From IMG/VR virus record IMGVR_UViG_3300033571_008844, positions 1 through 28,660 of that record: 28,660 nucleotides of DNA; one strand, 5' to 3'. Position numbers and translations under genes: made by a program. The notes beneath the pieces were generated by a model. That model was not told the origin of the DNA, made no database searches, and saw nothing but the letters and a program-made list of their open reading frames with translations. Of this stretch, positions 5,490 through 27,163 are shown one piece after another; the first letter of the stretch is position 1; each line of letters begins with the position of its first letter. This DNA is from a virus.

Positions 5490-6558
5490 TGCGGAACCTG
5501 TTTAGGGGGCTGAACGTCTGTGCTATCCACGAATCATAGTTCGGAAAGGCACCTATTAATTTATCCTTCACGAGTAGCTTTGTCAAGGCATACTTATCGA
5601 ACTTAGGTAACGTTTTGTTAAACGCATCGGCAACGCGAATACGAGCGTCGGCAGACATGATGCCTTCGTGTAAATTCATCAGTGTAATGTTTCGTTCTAC
5701 GATATCACCGCTGTTTAGTATATTAGAAATAACTTTCGGAATCTTTTTTTGATCTTGGTATTTTTTCTTAATGAATTCTAAATTTATTTCTATTGAAGAG
5801 TCCGCGATTTCTGGGATATACTTTTTTATAGTTGCTTCCCCGACTCCTTTTATCCCATTAATGTTATCACTAACATCTCCATTTAATGCACGAAAAAAGT
5901 AAAAATGTTTTGGGTGAATACCATAATCTTCTAAAATAACCGTTTCACTGAACGTCTTCTTTTTTACCGGATTAAAAATTGTTACGGTGTCCGACGCAAG
6001 CTGAAAAAAATCTTTATCTGTGGAGTAAATTATACTCTTACCGCCTTGCTCAGTTACTAACTGAGACAAGTATGCAATAACATCATCAGCCTCTACATTA
6101 TCTATTGCAAATGTAGTAACTGGTAAATGATCTAATATTTCAATTAACTTTACCAACTGAAACTTCATGTTTTCCTTTTCTTGTTCATCGGTAGTCAAAT
6201 CATACGCCCGGTTCAATCGAACGGGCGGTTTTCTATTTTTTTTATAGTCAGGAAAAATCTTTCGTCTACGTTGACTACCTCCCTTCCCATCGAATATCAT
6301 TATCACACGGCTTGGTTTAAATTGACGTATTGCCGCACCCAGACTTTTTAATACGCCAATCATTCCGCCGATATGACGACCATTATCGTCCATCGAAGGG
6401 ACGGCTGCATAATTTCTTATAAATAAATTTGTGCTATCTACCAACAAGACACGGGAATTATATCCCGTGCCTTGGTAGTCTTCCTCGAATTTCATACTCT
6501 TAAACACATCTCGTGGATCAATCATGGAGCAGTTGCGGTTGTGGTTTAATGTCATCAT
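5473..6558 (-). CDS. 5'-3' exonuclease / flap endonuclease (T4 RNase H-like)
   Basis: FEN-family structure-specific nuclease that removes RNA primers and 5' flaps during lagging-strand maturation. In the 361 residues the acidic metal sites appear in order: LLVDSTNLF (Asp41), IMIFDGKGG (Asp90) followed by the basic RRRKIFPDYKKNRK arch, NVEADDV (Glu156, Asp158, Asp159), YSTDKDFFQL (Asp181, Asp183), and GDVSDNINGIKGVGEAT (228-243), the helix-3-turn-helix DNA-binding motif with Asp228/Asp231. The ATG pair at 6558/6555 follows GGAG at ideal spacing inside the end of recA, giving a 41-base overlap; an internal Met at 6525 has no ribosome binding site. The C-terminal ~60 residues beyond the H3TH region are not recognised. 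Confident family call. Confidence 0.92.
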   Translation of the reverse strand: MMTLNHNRNCSMIDPRDVFKSMKFEEDYQGTGYNSRVLLVDSTNLFIRNYAAVPSMDDNGRHIGGMIGVLKSLGAAIRQFKPSRVIMIFDGKGGSQRRRKIFPDYKKNRKPPVRLNRAYDLTTDEQEKENMKFQLVKLIEILDHLPVTTFAIDNVEADDVIAYLSQLVTEQGGKSIIYSTDKDFFQLASDTVTIFNPVKKKTFSETVILEDYGIHPKHFYFFRALNGDVSDNINGIKGVGEATIKKYIPEIADSSIEINLEFIKKKYQDQKKIPKVISNILNSGDIVERNITLMNLHEGIMSADARIRVADAFNKTLPKFDKYALTKLLVKDKLIGAFPNYDSWIAQTFSPLNRFRNDTRI

Positions 6559-7693
6559 CGTCTACTCCATCACTAAACGATACCTCGTCTGGGTCAAACT
6601 CTTCTTTGTACTTCATTATTAAAATGTCACAAATCTTTTGATATATACTCTCCTTTCGCTCAGGATTGGCGTCAAGAAACGCGGGAAAATCTTTTGATTG
6701 AAACTTTGTTTCTTCGCCCGTATCCGGATCAACGTAGGTATACCATGCACCGGCTTGTTTTACAAGCTTGTTGTCCTTCATAACATTTAACCAACTTGTA
6801 TAATCATCTATACCCCGGTTGAAATAAATTTCAAAGTCTGCCGTTCTGTGTGGAGGTCCGAGGCGATTCTTTTCTACCTTTGCCCTGACTTTGACCCCAA
6901 TAACATCGCCGTCTTTATTAGTAATCTTTCCCGTCTGAGATAGGCGAAGTCGTGTAGAAGCATGGAAGGCAATAGCCTTACCACCAGAAGTGGTCCACGG
7001 GTCACTAAAAGCCATCGCATTCATTTTCTGACGTAGTTGGTTAGTGAATACTAAAGCAATCTTTTGACGAGCGAGCATGCCCGTAATTTTACGCATGGCT
7101 TTACTAATGATGATAGCCTTATCCGTCGCATACCCGTCTTTACTAAAATCGGCCTCCAGTTCCTTTTTGGTAGACGCGGCTGCTACGGAGTCTACTACAA
7201 TCGTAACCATCTTCTTATCGTTAGCCGGATTCTTACGAATATGTTCAATCAAAAATACCATTCTATCAAACACATCTTCTACCGTATTCGCTTCAACCCA
7301 AACAAGCTTCTTTAAATCAAGCCCAATTGCGGTATAAAACTCTGGATTTACCGCCGTTTCTGTATCAATTAAAACAGCAACGCCACCCATCCTTTGAGTG
7401 GTGGCCATTAAATGAGCGCACACCAATGACTTACCAGAGCCTTCCAATCCAGTTACTTCGGTGATACGTCCTACCGCGATTCCTCCATGTGGACGATTGC
7501 TAATTGCAATGTCAAGCATTGTGGCACCGGTTGATACGAAATCAGTAAACTCGGTAGGAGAATTGTCAATTCCATCAAGAAAATAGGCAATTTTTTCACC
7601 GCCTTTATGAAATTGATTCAACGCATCCGCAATATTTTGTGCTAACTCATCTCTATCTGTATCAATTGTTTTCTTTTCTGCTTTAGTTCTCAT
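6518..7693 (-). CDS. RecA/UvsX-type recombinase
   Basis: Strand-exchange ATPase of 391 residues that coats ssDNA for recombination-dependent replication and repair. Motifs, numbered from the chosen start: Walker A GLEGSGKS (82-89), Walker B TIVVDSV (164-170), the FTNQLRQKM segment leading into loop L2, and TSGGKAIAFHASTRL, the counterpart of RecA's GGxALKFYAS region. An acidic tail (SFSDGVDDDD) ends the protein, as in RecA. The start is the ATG at 7693 because GGGG stands six bases upstream; a TTG at 7756 in the same frame falls in the promoter -35, and an ATG at 7705 lacks a site. It is preceded by the only strong promoter in the window, with a palindrome over it. It looks closer to bacterial RecA than to T4 UvsX, but I cannot settle that by eye. 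Confidence 0.93.
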   Translation of the reverse strand: MRTKAEKKTIDTDRDELAQNIADALNQFHKGGEKIAYFLDGIDNSPTEFTDFVSTGATMLDIAISNRPHGGIAVGRITEVTGLEGSGKSLVCAHLMATTQRMGGVAVLIDTETAVNPEFYTAIGLDLKKLVWVEANTVEDVFDRMVFLIEHIRKNPANDKKMVTIVVDSVAAASTKKELEADFSKDGYATDKAIIISKAMRKITGMLARQKIALVFTNQLRQKMNAMAFSDPWTTSGGKAIAFHASTRLRLSQTGKITNKDGDVIGVKVRAKVEKNRLGPPHRTADFEIYFNRGIDDYTSWLNVMKDNKLVKQAGAWYTYVDPDTGEETKFQSKDFPAFLDANPERKESIYQKICDILIMKYKEEFDPDEVSFSDGVDDDDIKPQPQLLHD

Positions 7694-7699
7694 ATAGAT

Positions 7700-7703
7700 C
7701 CCC
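7700..7703 (-). promoter_or_regulatory. Ribosome binding site deciding the recA start
   Basis: GGGG on the minus strand, six bases before the ATG at 7693 (ggggatctat then ATG). It selects this start over the upstream in-frame ATG at 7705, which overlaps the GGGG itself and has nothing comparable in front of it. Confidence 0.6.
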
Positions 7704-7709
7704 ATAAAT

Positions 7710-7747
7710 CTTAAGTGGTCCACGTTAAATATAGTGGACCACTTAAG
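7710..7747. promoter_or_regulatory. Perfect 14-bp inverted repeat over the recA promoter (candidate operator)
   Basis: Left arm cttaagtggtccac (7710-7723) and right arm gtggaccacttaag (7734-7747) are exact reverse complements, separated by a 10-base centre (7724-7733). The centre of symmetry, 7728.5, falls at the edge of the -10 box, so the arms cover the spacer and the start-site region. That is the position expected for a dimeric repressor's operator. In mRNA reading through from ssb it would also form a strong hairpin; no U-tract follows in the direction of transcription, so a rho-independent terminator is unlikely. Confidence 0.7.
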
Positions 7748-7756
7748 AAATGTCAA
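7728..7756 (-). promoter_or_regulatory. Sigma70-type promoter for recA
   Basis: On the minus strand a perfect -35 TTGACA (7756-7751) is followed by a 17-base spacer and the -10 TATATT (7733-7728, five of six matches to TATAAT). Transcription would begin near 7721, giving a leader of about 28 bases before the recA ATG at 7693. It lies in the 69-base gap between the ssb stop (7763) and recA. It lets recA and the downstream exonuclease, helicase and perhaps reductase genes be expressed separately from ssb using host RNA polymerase. It is the best sigma70 match I found in any gap. Confidence 0.75.
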
Positions 7757-7762
7757 CGGTTA

Positions 7763-8551
7763 TTAGTTAAAAATAGCGTCAAATTCGTCCGCGATGTCTT
7801 GATTCGTCTTACTCGCCTTAGTAGAAGCGGTAGAGGATTTTGTTGTTATTGACTGCGGCCCTTCATCGGCAGAAGAGGAGGGAGCTTCTGGTGGGGTGTT
7901 GTCCGGGTCTAAGAATTTCGCAAGAGCATTCTTTAATTCGTCGAAAGAAGGTTCCTTGAAAATAACCCGCAAGTCTGGTTGTTCATTCAAAAGCTTTTCG
8001 ATTAATCCACTATTAGTTGCTAGCGGAGTCATGTTTGGCTTAGCGCGAACCGTGGTCTTGGCAAACCCAGTGTCTGACTTTTCTTGGGGAATGTAATCTA
8101 CCACGATATCTCTTCCTGACTGTACATCGGTGATATCACCATAATCAGGGTCCGCGATGATTGAAAGTAGCTCAGTATACACGGTCTTACCAAAAGACAT
8201 AAACCGAACTCCCTTGTCTTCTTCACCGCGCACGATTATTGGGACGAAGGTGCGTAGTTTTGGGCGGAACGGGCGAGACTGTAACCAGTCTTCCTTTTTT
8301 CCACTAGAAGAAACTTCTTCTGCGAATTCTAAAATAGGATCGCGGTTGCCATTAGAAATCGGGGAAAGATATGTCTTGTTACCAAGATAGTGAAAGTGCA
8401 ACTCAATGAAAGGGTCTTCCCGATTTTCCTTCCACGGTACAATACGGATGATGTGACGGCCTTCGGTGGGCTTCCACAGCGCTTCAGTTTGATTACCCTG
8501 CTTGTTAAATTGGCTTAGTTTTTGTTTAAGTGCAGCGATGTTTAGGGTCAT
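7763..8551 (-). CDS. Single-stranded DNA-binding protein, T4 gp32-like
   Basis: Coats ssDNA at the phage replication fork and organises the helicase, polymerase and recombinase. The 262 residues follow the gp32 plan: a basic N-terminus (LKQKLSQFNKQ, residues 8-18) of the type that gives cooperativity, an OB-fold core beginning ALWKPTEGRHIIRIVPWK (24-41) with a conserved FIELHFHYLG (48-57), and a disordered Pro/Ser/Thr linker ending in an acidic, aromatic tip DIADEFDAIFN (252-262) that in gp32 binds partner proteins. The zinc-binding Cys/His set of T4 gp32 is absent; residues 58-75 replace it. The start at 8551 has a strong site (cgaggactaagt then ATG). The leader carries a stem-loop, which may matter for autoregulation as in T4. 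Good confidence from architecture and neighbours. Confidence 0.82.
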   Translation of the reverse strand: MTLNIAALKQKLSQFNKQGNQTEALWKPTEGRHIIRIVPWKENREDPFIELHFHYLGNKTYLSPISNGNRDPILEFAEEVSSSGKKEDWLQSRPFRPKLRTFVPIIVRGEEDKGVRFMSFGKTVYTELLSIIADPDYGDITDVQSGRDIVVDYIPQEKSDTGFAKTTVRAKPNMTPLATNSGLIEKLLNEQPDLRVIFKEPSFDELKNALAKFLDPDNTPPEAPSSSADEGPQSITTKSSTASTKASKTNQDIADEFDAIFN

Positions 8552-8588
8552 ACTTAGTCCTCGTTTAAAATGTTTAGGTGTTTAATAC

Positions 8589-8608
8589 ACTTGCTATCCT
8601 TAGCAAGT
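8589..8608. promoter_or_regulatory. Stem-loop in the ssb leader
   Basis: Perfect 8-bp stem acttgcta / tagcaagt closed by a four-base loop (8597-8600), lying 38-57 bases before the ssb start codon. Between it and the Shine-Dalgarno is A/U-rich, apparently unstructured RNA. T4 gene 32 has a leader structure (a pseudoknot) at about this distance that nucleates gp32 binding to its own mRNA. Here a CCU lies 3' of the stem that could pair with the AGG of the loop, but only over about three bases, so a pseudoknot is not shown. No U-run follows, so it is not a standard terminator. Confidence 0.45.
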
Positions 8609-8628
8609 ATTCGGTGAAAATCAAAAGA

Positions 8629-9024
8629 TTAGAAATTAATTATGTTAAGTAATTTAGTATTTACTATTTTTAGCTTTCCGTAGGCGGTTACTAATACTGT
8701 ATTCTTTAATTCTTCCCAATTGATTCTATAAGTTTTATCTAAAATTCCGTTATTATTGGCTTCAATTAATTTATTAATAGCGTTTATTGTGTAAATTGTA
8801 TTTGTCTGCTTTTTTCGGTGTACTGCAATAGTAGAAATAGGAGTAGCTTTGTCCAACACGTTTACAATATTATATGTCAATACAAGCTGAGCGTTATCGT
8901 TTACATTCTCTAATACATATAATTTATTAAAAGAAAGTTTGTATGCCTTTTTAATTTCGTCTACTGTATATGCAAGCTCGTCTGCCGCAGCAAACGTACA
9001 AAGCAATTGAGTTTGTTCAATCAT
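8629..9024 (-). CDS. Hypothetical protein, 131 aa
   Basis: I do not recognise this protein. It reads as a folded, mostly alpha/beta protein rich in Asn, Leu, Ile and Thr, with no cysteine pair, signal peptide or membrane segment. The segment TVDEIKKAYKLSFNKLYVLEN resembles a helical stretch; the C-terminus ends in KIVNTKLLNIINF. I chose the ATG at 9024 because GGA lies upstream at reasonable spacing (atggatgttacat then ATG); an ATG at 9033 has GG immediately adjacent and is less likely. It sits directly before ssb in the transcript, 77 bases away, where T4 relatives often carry small replication accessory proteins, but nothing in the sequence supports a specific one. Confidence 0.6.
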   Translation of the reverse strand: MIEQTQLLCTFAAADELAYTVDEIKKAYKLSFNKLYVLENVNDNAQLVLTYNIVNVLDKATPISTIAVHRKKQTNTIYTINAINKLIEANNNGILDKTYRINWEELKNTVLVTAYGKLKIVNTKLLNIINF

Positions 9025-9064
9025 ATGTAACATCCATTAAAAGTTCAAGAAAGAATCTTTTAAT

Positions 9065-9096
9065 AAATATTACATTATTCCCCCAAAGTAATATTT
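9065..9096. repeat. AT-rich 9-bp inverted repeat after the UDP-glucose dehydrogenase gene
   Basis: aaatattac (9065-9073) and gtaatattt (9088-9096) are perfect complements around a 14-base loop with a C5 run. On the minus strand it begins at the last stop-codon base of the dehydrogenase gene. The stem is almost all A-T and is not followed by a clear U-tract, so I do not call it a terminator; it could be a weak processing or pausing site. Confidence 0.35.
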
Positions 9097-9977
9097 TACT
9101 CTACTACTGCTCTACCCTTTAATTGTTCCCAATCACGTTCAGGACGATCTATTAAAACATTTCGGGCCTGTACGGCATTTATTAGAGGTATAGTTACTCC
9201 GTGGGCGTTTGCCACTTCGATCAATGCAGATATATCTTTTGGAAAGCACGATCCACCAAATCCTCGGTGTCCGTCTGGTCCGGGAACCTTCCAGTGAGTT
9301 TTGCCTAGTCTAGAATCGGACGTAAGTAGAAGTTGCAAATCATCCCAGTTCGCACCAACCGCATTGGCTACGTCAAACATTTCGTTTGCAAACGTTACTT
9401 TTGTTGCCAAAAATACATTCGCCATATACTTGAACATTTCCGCCGTAGTAGAAGAAACGACGATGTGTTTTTTAACATGGTCTAACACACTGGCTTGCTC
9501 TTCCAACACCGCGTTGGAAAGCACAAATGGAGTTCGTTCAGGCGCACCCAATATCAATAGATTTTGATCTAAATAATCGTTTAAATAATTTGCTTCAGTT
9601 AAAAATTCTGGACTGAAAAAAATATGATGACTAGGATATTTTGCTTGCAAGCGCTCCGTAGTCCCCGGTGGGACTGTAGATTTAATAATCAAGACACGAG
9701 GTGATGTGTGTTGAGTAAGCTGTTCAATAACACTTTCTACGATGCTTGTGTCACACTCACCCGATAACATCATCGGAGTCGGAACCGCTATATAAATCAA
9801 CTCAGCTTGGGCGGCTAATTCGTTCAATGAAGAGCACCGCACGGCGCTCCAGTGGGTTTTGGATGGATCGATGTCGTAAATATATACTTTGCCGGGTAGA
9901 GTTTTTCGACCATATGCGTTGCGTACGGCGGATCCTACGTATCCTAACCCAACTATACCAATTGAAGGTTTTTTCAT
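9096..9977 (-). CDS. UDP-glucose/GDP-mannose 6-dehydrogenase family protein, short form
   Basis: NAD-dependent nucleotide-sugar dehydrogenase; the UDP-glucose type makes UDP-glucuronate for surface polysaccharide or glycan synthesis. In the 293 residues: Rossmann motif GLGYVG (10-15), IYDIDPSK with the NAD-ribose Asp, STVPPGTT (100-107), SPEFLTEANYLND (122-134) with the family Glu, AEMFKYMANVFLATKVTFANE (179-199), and GFGGSCFPKD (239-248) with the nucleophile Cys244. It ends soon after, so the C-terminal nucleotide-sugar domain of the ~390-450-residue cellular enzymes is missing. The ATG at 9977 overlaps the TGA of the polymerase-like gene (ATGA). With the glycosyltransferase at the other end of the window it suggests sugar modification of virion or host surface. 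Substrate is not determined. Confidence 0.85.
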   Translation of the reverse strand: MKKPSIGIVGLGYVGSAVRNAYGRKTLPGKVYIYDIDPSKTHWSAVRCSSLNELAAQAELIYIAVPTPMMLSGECDTSIVESVIEQLTQHTSPRVLIIKSTVPPGTTERLQAKYPSHHIFFSPEFLTEANYLNDYLDQNLLILGAPERTPFVLSNAVLEEQASVLDHVKKHIVVSSTTAEMFKYMANVFLATKVTFANEMFDVANAVGANWDDLQLLLTSDSRLGKTHWKVPGPDGHRGFGGSCFPKDISALIEVANAHGVTIPLINAVQARNVLIDRPERDWEQLKGRAVVE

Positions 9978-24368: not shown

Positions 24369-25853
24369 TTAAGCATTGCAATCAACGCATTGTGAATTAT
24401 TGGTGCAAGAAGTAAAGCATCCTCCAATTACGGGGCTGGTTCCGGATCCAATGTAAACAGGAGTTGCGGTACTACACACGAATTGTGAATTTCCTGACGG
24501 TGATAGGTCAGCCGTTCCTCCTCCTACCGGATAATATCTAACAACCCCCGTATCAAACGGTCCTACCGCATAGCATTCTCCCATTGGAGGAGAGTTTGTA
24601 GGGGTTATTGTAGGAGTTGGAGTGTTGGTCGGAGTAACTGTATTCGATGGAGTAACTGTATTAGAAGGCGTAACAGATGGTGTAGCAGTGTTGGATGGAG
24701 TGGCTGTATTAGAAGGCGTAACCGTATTAGATGGAGTAACTGTATTAGAAGGCGTAACAGAAGGTGTAACCGTATTCGATGGAGTAGGCGTAGGAGTTTG
24801 TGATGGACATGCCGTAGTTCCGGTTACATTTCCATTAACCACGGTATATAAAGTTCCACTTATTAAAATAACTCCCGTGAATAAAGAAACACACCCGGTT
24901 CCTAAAAAGATTCTACCACTACAATCTTCAGAAAAATTCTGTACGCTTGGTGACGAACAATATTCCGATAACGTGAATCCCCAATTAAACTGTCCTACAT
25001 TTGTACACGCACATATTGGAGAAGGAGTTACTGTTGGCGTTGGGGTGTTGGATGGCGTAACAGACGGAGTAACTGTATTAGATGGCGTGACTGTATTAGA
25101 TGGTGTTGGGGTGTTGGACGGTGTGACGGTATTTGATGGTGTAATAGACGGAGTAACAGTGTTAGATGGCGTAACAGTGTTAGAGGGAGTAATTGTGTTA
25201 GTTGGGGTATTAGACGGAGTTATTGTATTAGATGGAGTCGTCGATATCGACGGAGTTGCTGTTGGTGACGGGCTTGGAGATAACCCCGGGGTAACCGTGG
25301 CAGAGGGAGTTGCCGTTTTAGACGGAGTTACGGTATTAGACGGAGTTGGCGTGTTGGATGGGGTTGCTGTATTAGAAGGAGTCGCGGTAACAGATGGAGT
25401 AATAGTGGGAGTTACGGACGGTGTGGTTGTAGGTGTTACGGTATTTGATGGAGTTATAGATGGAGTGGCTGTCGGTGTAACGGATGGAGTTACAGTGTTA
25501 CTAGGAGTTATTGTTGGAGTTGCTGTATTACTAGGGGTTATACTTGGGGTTACGGTATTACTAGGTGTAACGCTTATGCTAGGCGTAGTAGTAGGAGAAG
25601 GAGATGGGATTGGAAAGCATAAAAAATAATCTCTCGCAGTAGGAGTTACCGGCGGATAAATTCCATTCGTTATCGTTGCGTCAGAGTATCCGGCTGGACA
25701 CCCGGGTAGCGGGGTTCCTCGTGGACCCTTGCTACCGGAAATTCCAATTATAGCCTGTGTTACTCGCGCAACAGATTGCATAGCATGTGCATAGCTTGCA
25801 GTGGCCGCGTACGAGCTTGTAGATGGTATACCTACTGGAAAAAACACGCTCAT
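24369..25853 (-). CDS. Thr-Pro-Ser-Asn repeat surface/tail fibre protein
   Basis: A 494-residue protein dominated by [12 protein letters not shown] repeats (82-279 and 352-420), the sort of extended, possibly glycosylated stalk seen in phage appendage proteins. The N-terminus is a short module [20 protein letters not shown] (10-29) followed by a collagen-like [12 protein letters not shown], shared with the two small proteins encoded just upstream. Two cysteine-rich globular parts lie after the stalks: 281-349 ([13 protein letters not shown]...) and 424-494 (ending [14 protein letters not shown]), likely disulfide-stabilised tips. No signal peptide. The start at 25853 has a strong site (ataggagtattat then ATG). 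Virion appendage is likely; receptor binding is inference. Confidence 0.75.
24594..24800 (-). repeat. TPSN-type repeat tract, C-terminal
   Basis: Encodes residues 352-420 of the fibre protein: imperfect units of 4-6 codons, mostly [18 protein letters not shown]. Third codon positions vary between units, so the protein pattern is being kept despite nucleotide drift. Confidence 0.85.
25017..25610 (-). repeat. TPSN-type repeat tract, N-terminal
   Basis: Encodes residues 82-279 of the fibre protein, about 200 residues of Thr/Pro/Ser with Asn, Val, Ile or Ala at the variable positions. Longer and less regular than the second tract. Confidence 0.85.
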
Positions 25854-26293: not shown

Positions 26294-27163
26294 TTATTCC
26301 TCTAGAGAAAATACGTGTAACGAAGCACTTATATCTGTTGGTCCACTAGAATCTACATTTTGTAATACATAGTACAAAGAAGATTCTCCTGCCAATAATG
26401 TAGGAGATTGTCTTAGTTTACCAATTTCCGGTGAAGTATAATCAATCGTTTGTAAGTTAGCTCCTACTATTTTGGGACTAAAGTAAACGGGCTGACTTCC
26501 GGTTATAATCATGTCCACGATTAAATCTTTCGCCACCGATTCGGTAGCAAACGATCTTGACACTTCTGACGCAACCGATAGAGATCCCGTAGTACTGTAC
26601 AACCTCAATCTAGCTTTGGCGGATGGATTGGTCAACGATGCGCTTACCAACAAGTATGTTCTTGGAACAGAATCATCGGACTTAATTCCACTGACTAACG
26701 CCCCCGCATTTAAACTTCCAGTAATATACTCAATCGTTCGTCGATTATCAATAGATATAGAAGAATTTTCTAACGTAAATATTGTAAGAGTTATGGTTGG
26801 ATACGTAGACGAAAATGTACCATTTACTCTATAATAACTTAAGTTACTGGTAGGATTGGCTATAACCCCATACAACACGGGGTCTATGGTATATACTCCC
26901 GCCGCGCTCATTGAAAAGTCGCCGGTCAATGCAATAGAGGGATTTGTATTTGTAGTAGAAAATAACCTAGAACTTTCGTTTGCGTCATTTCTACTAGAAA
27001 CGCTATCGTATAATCTAACCCTACACGGAAGATCGGTCTGTATTTTTAATAGCGCATATGCAGACCCCAAATTAATAGACCCAATTAATGACGGATCCAC
27101 CGTAAACGATACGGTATTTCTAACAAGAGAAACATTGCTGGAAAGATATTCGGATAGTCCCAT
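26294..27163 (-). CDS. Structural protein with duplicated beta-rich domain, 289 aa
   Basis: Not assigned to a named family. Rich in Ser, Thr, Val and Ile, as in virion beta-sandwich proteins. Two related halves are visible: CRVRLYDSVSSRNDANESSRLFST (47-70) and KARLRLYSTTGSLSVASEVSRSFAT (183-207), each followed by a similar beta-rich stretch and each half ending in a phrase of the type TIFTLE / HVFSLEE. This points to an internal duplication. No Shine-Dalgarno is evident before the ATG at 27163. The gene leads the small Ala/Ser genes and follows the glycosyltransferase, so it is probably an adhesin or appendage component, by context. Confidence 0.6.
   Translation of the reverse strand: MGLSEYLSSNVSLVRNTVSFTVDPSLIGSINLGSAYALLKIQTDLPCRVRLYDSVSSRNDANESSRLFSTTNTNPSIALTGDFSMSAAGVYTIDPVLYGVIANPTSNLSYYRVNGTFSSTYPTITLTIFTLENSSISIDNRRTIEYITGSLNAGALVSGIKSDDSVPRTYLLVSASLTNPSAKARLRLYSTTGSLSVASEVSRSFATESVAKDLIVDMIITGSQPVYFSPKIVGANLQTIDYTSPEIGKLRQSPTLLAGESSLYYVLQNVDSSGPTDISASLHVFSLEE

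Follow-up and report, generated by a model that had tools for sequence, protein, structure and literature searches.

The gene for a RecA/UvsX-like recombinase in this phage is preceded by a near-consensus promoter that overlaps a perfect inverted repeat, and the locus raises the question of whether that palindrome acts as DNA, as a site for a regulatory protein, or as RNA. The window, meaning the whole stretch of DNA analysed, is a 28.7-kb phage record (28,660 nucleotides). Its minus strand carries, in order of transcription, gp32, recA/uvsX, a 5′–3′ exonuclease gene and a DnaB-like helicase gene. The features at the gp32–recA junction are as follows.

8589–8608, minus strand: small hairpin in the gp32 leader, ACTTGCTAAGGATAGCAAGT
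7763–8551, minus strand: gene for a gp32-like single-strand DNA-binding protein (Pfam PF08804, 1.5e-12; PHROG 1192)
7765–7763, minus strand: gp32 stop codon
7751–7756, minus strand: −35 hexamer TTGACA (TTGAC invariant in the 19-row leader alignment)
7734–7748, minus strand: 5′ arm of the hairpin, TCTTAAGTGGTCCAC, within the promoter spacer
7724–7733, minus strand: 10-nt loop, TATATTTAAC, containing the −10
7728–7733, minus strand: −10 hexamer TATATT, the first six bases of the loop (TA.A.T invariant in 19 rows)
7709–7723, minus strand: 3′ arm of the hairpin, GTGGACCACTTAAGA, containing the predicted start of the recA mRNA
7721, minus strand: predicted transcription start, seventh base after the −10; RNA begun here lacks the 5′ arm
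7700–7703, minus strand: Shine–Dalgarno-like GGGG, outside the stem
7693–7691, minus strand: recA ATG
6518–7693, minus strand: recA/uvsX-like recombinase gene (Pfam PF00154, RecA, 3e-53; PHROG 97, UvsX-like, 6e-72)

The promoter proposed in the first-pass annotation holds up well. Its hexamers are separated by 17 nt and match the consensus at 11 of 12 positions, and with a TTGACA-like and a TATAAT-like hexamer 17 ± 1 nt apart, both conserved, it is of the sigma-70 type. The start at 7721 is a prediction from the rule of thumb that places it at the seventh base past the −10. The inverted repeat is real and perfect as first described; its length is 15 bp and not 14 (7709–7723 with 7734–7748, 100% complementary across a 10-nt gap). 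Its centre, 7728.5, is indeed the downstream edge of the −10, and the repeat occupies the same position relative to the promoter in related phages. With loops of 3 to 20 nt allowed, this is the longest perfect inverted repeat in the window; among 40 Markov sequences as long as the window, one reached 15 bp anywhere. Length by itself is thus only moderately unusual; the evidence lies in the position on the promoter and in conservation. We note that an in-frame ATG at 7703–7705 (minus strand), four codons 5′ of the recA start, overlaps the Shine–Dalgarno-like GGGG. Elsewhere in the window, 24369–25853 (minus strand) encodes a long, repeat-rich, low-complexity protein of TPS-type repeats (...TPSNTVTPS...).

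Relatives were collected in three scans of viral contigs, which gave 193 loci with the same contigs partly repeated. Upstream sequences were examined at 80 recA loci (in part), at 33 gp32 loci and at 62 of the 80 loci of the third scan. All leaders of the close group (L153–L184, L213 and L217) have the TTGAC, the −10 and a hairpin around the −10; L185, whose match starts late in recA and whose site lies beyond the stretch, was left out of this reading. The −10 is TATATT, TAGATT or TATACT across the close group. Of 20 leaders measured, 19 have a spacer of 17 nt and one a spacer of 18 nt; within the close group its length is 18 nt in L183/L217. Across the 19 aligned rows the spacer drifts, whereas TTGAC and the T A. 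A. T of the −10 never change. On a recA tree of 42 rows, promoter and hairpin occur together in 18, including L184, the earliest branch of a well-supported clade of 30 rows. L211 and L212 retain the long hairpin without the promoter. The distant loci L027–L080, as far as they were read, carry no such element; at other distant gp32–recA junctions there are different hairpins (L096–L100) or a hairpin with a T-run of variable length behind it (L105–L110). A search of GTDB genomes with RecA found no relative, and no host is therefore inferred.

The arms of the hairpin change together. Across the 19-row alignment 88.0% of cells are paired and 11 of the 14 pairs have changed on both sides, with none of 500 shuffles scoring as high; structures slid along the same alignment are 29–45% paired. 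These figures retain L184, where the aligner shifts the stem by one base and most cells are counted as unpaired. A set of 11 representatives, hand-picked as one per close cluster and leaving L184 out, gives 92.9% of cells paired, both-side change in 12 of 14 pairs and again 0 of 500 shuffles as high, with slid controls at 31–43%. Since the relatives share ancestry, cell counts in either alignment are not independent events. RNAalifold recovers the helix unprompted. The Rfam covariance models gave no match up to an E value of 1 over positions 6000–9500.

Departures from Watson–Crick pairing are not symmetrical between the strands. Read as sense RNA, G:U cells outnumber A:C cells by 17 to 2 in the 11-row set (two-sided binomial p ~7e-4, shared ancestry ignored) and by 29 to 3 in the 19-row set. 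Other mismatches amount to 9 cells in 11 rows and 29 cells in 19 rows, with L184 and the outer pairs accounting for many of them. The minimum free energy of the sense strand lies below that of the antisense strand in all 21 leaders folded, a set in which L160 and L163 are the same stretch and L211 and L212 lack the promoter. A bias towards one strand points to an element that works at the RNA level, as a DNA operator or a cruciform offers no reason for it. As far as alignments can speak, these data establish that pairing of the hairpin in RNA is kept by selection and that its arms drift by compensatory change. The hairpin in read-through mRNA, which the first-pass annotation had raised only as an aside, is thereby borne out. 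The conservation of the palindrome in relatives with a conserved leader, which had been put forward as a test of the regulator reading, is also observed, though for an RNA reason.

The same layout recurs in this phage group. A strict pattern applied to 16 contigs gave 96 distinct intergenic promoters, 16 of which have a strong stem whose centre is no more than 5 nt from that of the −10, whereas the other 38 ten-base bins together hold 17 strong stems; the contigs are related and only identical duplicates were removed, so that these are not counts of independent events. Nine of the 16 centred stems belong to recA leaders and seven to other loci. With a looser −10 pattern the central bin holds 22 of 123 promoters, against a mean of 1.9 in the other bins. 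Promoters that could be scanned numbered 0 in Mel-JY01 (1–100 kb), 2 in G016 and 4 in G017, too few for controls. Comparison of the leaders establishes that, between gp32 and recA, TTGAC-17-TATATT and a strong sense-RNA hairpin are kept together, with the −10 in or at the loop.

The sites found with the looser −10 include the gp32 leader in several members, where a hairpin surrounds the −10 of TTGAC-17-TA...T (L143 6439, minus strand; L149 7177, minus; L237 11405, plus; L245 14366, minus; L248 12629, plus; L261 3813, plus). Between this hairpin and the ribosome-binding site of gp32 the sequence is rich in A and C and repeats CTAAACA, which recalls the translational operator of T4 gene 32. In the window the gp32 leader has a hairpin at this place (8589–8608) with poor promoter hexamers. 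An orthologous methyltransferase-like gene, named by eye, is preceded by nested hairpins of different sequence in L142 and L243, and one hairpin recurs beside different genes with compensatory change (L244 and L249/L261). A second register also exists, in which the hairpin is centred on the −35 and in most cases a T-run leads into the −10; it comprises four strict promoters. The hairpins centred on the −35 (L126 649, plus strand; L245 ~3198, minus; L253 ~15579, plus; L131 1913, minus) look like fusions of a terminator and a promoter. Separately, the first 40 kb of contig G007 (L115–L116) are dense in TTGAC-17-TATATT promoters with a common "acagtat" just past the −10; an ATG often lies about a dozen bases downstream, and these promoters possibly give very short or leaderless early mRNAs.

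The best explanation of the locus, and in our judgement a probable one, is a nested promoter–hairpin junction element between gp32 and recA. It follows from the geometry that read-through RNA from gp32 would carry both arms and could fold, and that RNA begun at the nested promoter, if its predicted start is right, would begin inside the 3′ arm and could not. The hairpin in read-through RNA would form a 3′ boundary, as an exonuclease barrier, a processing mark or a weak terminator, and so may give gp32 a separate mRNA. The nested host-type promoter would restart transcription and supply a hairpin-free mRNA for recA and the genes behind it. Through the overlap, a single stretch of ~60 bp would serve both jobs. 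The −35 lies 4–9 nt from the gp32 stop codon in the relatives (counted by script), and the 5′ arm begins ~11–17 nt past that stop in leaders read by eye. We favour a role as 3′ boundary because the position of the hairpin follows the gp32 end and the promoter more closely than it follows the start of recA. We count against the junction element the sister group, where 10 sampled rows (L186–L210) have neither hairpin nor promoter, and the gp32–recA junctions of Mel-JY01 (an 8-nt gap) and of L101–L104, where no hairpin or promoter was found. In the sister group, several recA starts are flanked by short stretches that are complementary to each other (TCGGTA ... TACCGA).

The hairpin might instead lock translation in the T4 manner, the read-through fold blocking the recA ribosome site and leaving translation to RNA from the nested promoter. 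As described in the passages on T4 e, soc, 49 and I-TevI, the promoter lies inside a hairpin that folds only in read-through RNA, a principle that is established there and in others; the ribosome site is concealed by such hairpins, and their promoters are late ones (PMC3014915, PMC2988022). The recA junction shares this geometry, since its predicted start at 7721 falls within the 3′ arm and the promoter's own RNA would lack the 5′ arm; in the T4 late nested promoters of e, soc and 49, together with those of I-TevI and segB and of Aeh1 mobE, the overlap likewise leaves only read-through RNA able to fold. The Shine–Dalgarno sequence does lie within the 3′ arm at other loci of the group (L142, L243 and L240) and in T5, and in the window its predicted accessibility is slightly lower in read-through RNA (0.38, against 0.50). 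In the recA leaders, however, the Shine–Dalgarno sequence is outside the stem and neither it nor the AUG is held in the helix. Among 19 relatives, a set that omits the window-like L153 (where the upstream in-frame ATG was taken as the start), predicted Shine–Dalgarno accessibility in read-through RNA compared with the promoter's own RNA is higher in 13, equal in 1 and lower in 5, and is thus not lowered in 14 of 19. Over −14 to +6 of the window the predicted values are 0.48 for read-through and 0.49 for nested-promoter RNA. The distance from the stem to the recA ATG is also variable (~15–25 nt). A pairing of the Shine–Dalgarno sequence with the −35, seen in some folds, is weak and does not lower Shine–Dalgarno accessibility, and was rejected. 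The recA junction further differs from the T4 late promoters in that its hairpin ends before the Shine–Dalgarno sequence without clearly burying it, its 5′ arm starts just past the upstream stop codon, it serves a replication/recombination gene, and its promoter is of the sigma-70 type (TTGAC/TATATT), the site being TATATTTA with a conserved −35 and not the late TATAAATA. We regard a lock on recA translation as unlikely.

A weak intrinsic terminator or attenuator, in which the chief effect of the hairpin would be to stop transcription of gp32, with the promoter starting it again, also seems improbable to us. At other loci of the group some nested hairpins are indeed followed by real T-runs (L118, TTTTTT; L142, TTTTG), and at some distant gp32–recA junctions a hairpin precedes a T-run (L108, L109). 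The 19 recA leaders, on the other hand, have 2–5 T in the 8 bases past the stem, and the site is absent from the list given by a terminator scan. The stem is strong and the U-tract inconsistent, which differs from the GC-rich stem and U-tract of an intrinsic terminator; any termination would therefore be weak, and a normal terminator is unlikely.

The first-pass annotation had read the palindrome as an operator, at which a dimeric repressor or activator would control recA. The dyad symmetry centred on the −10 and an inner CCCAC/GTGGG part that is slow to change would suit such a site. This view finds no support in the comparison, and we consider an operator very unlikely: the outer arms covary by compensatory change with a G:U bias on one strand, the hairpin persists without a promoter in L211/L212, and the half-site does not recur as an operator at other places (7 near-matches where 3.9 are expected). 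No further copy of the 14-nt half-site within one mismatch was found in the window or in its near-identical 58-kb contig; with two mismatches there is one copy inside recA in each of the two, and with three mismatches one elsewhere in the 58-kb contig. The half-site of the relatives, AGTGGGTCA, was sought in 17 contigs and matched in 11. A regulon sharing this operator was rejected, as in the nine contigs displayed AGTGGGTCA occurs at promoters only in recA leaders and the other matches are coding-like. Nor does the site resemble a LexA-like operator, given the lack of recurrence at other promoters and the strand preference in its departures from symmetry. A DNA cruciform or single-strand DNA hairpin exposing the −10 as a loop, in the manner of the N4 virion RNA polymerase promoters, is extremely improbable: although the −10 does lie within a loop at several unrelated loci, in a cruciform both strands would have to fold and no strand bias would be expected, yet one is seen, and the −35 and −10 hexamers of the promoter are of the ordinary kind.

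For the nested promoter–hairpin junction element, the nearest description is that of seg43(25) in Aeromonas phage 25, where, in the passage on this gene, a very stable hairpin sits just 5′ of the ribosome-binding site and leaves it uncovered (PMC2988022). The likeness is one of description: seg43(25) is a homing endonuclease gene, and the passage leaves the effect of its hairpin undetermined (PMC2988022). T5 (AY543070, 1–50 kb), included as a negative control, has three annotated promoters with the nested layout.

26722–26796, 28597–28671 and 46337–46411 of T5 (L288): nested promoters, annotated in AY543070

These share with the recA leaders a stem made by spacer and leader, here a long one, that holds the −10 in its loop; unlike in the recA leaders, the 3′ arm of the stem takes in the Shine–Dalgarno sequence. 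The likeness is one of layout, and we make no claim of common ancestry. Their presence in the control lowers the novelty of the arrangement. The passage on T4 gene 32 describes an RNase E site near the stop codon of a very stable mRNA (PMC3014915); what is described there is a cleavage site and not a promoter nested in a hairpin, and the parallel is an analogy only. Our literature search found no report of the promoter–hairpin layout in this phage group.

The element is, on the comparative evidence, real, conserved and RNA-level, and a variant of the nested-promoter principle of T4, which it would carry over from late genes to genes of replication under host-type promoters. Host-type promoters in the loops of junction hairpins may, more tentatively, be a general phage device that has been reached repeatedly, T5 included, with the fate of an mRNA set by where its transcription began. 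If so, neighbours in the replication cluster (gp32, recA and others) would have messages of their own without each needing its own terminator and promoter. Sequence alone has sufficed here to show that a palindrome lying over a promoter can be an RNA element rather than an operator, and the simple strand-bias test is applicable to other "operators" read from genomes. The compact promoter/insulator layout recurs across the whole phage group and is testable on plasmids.
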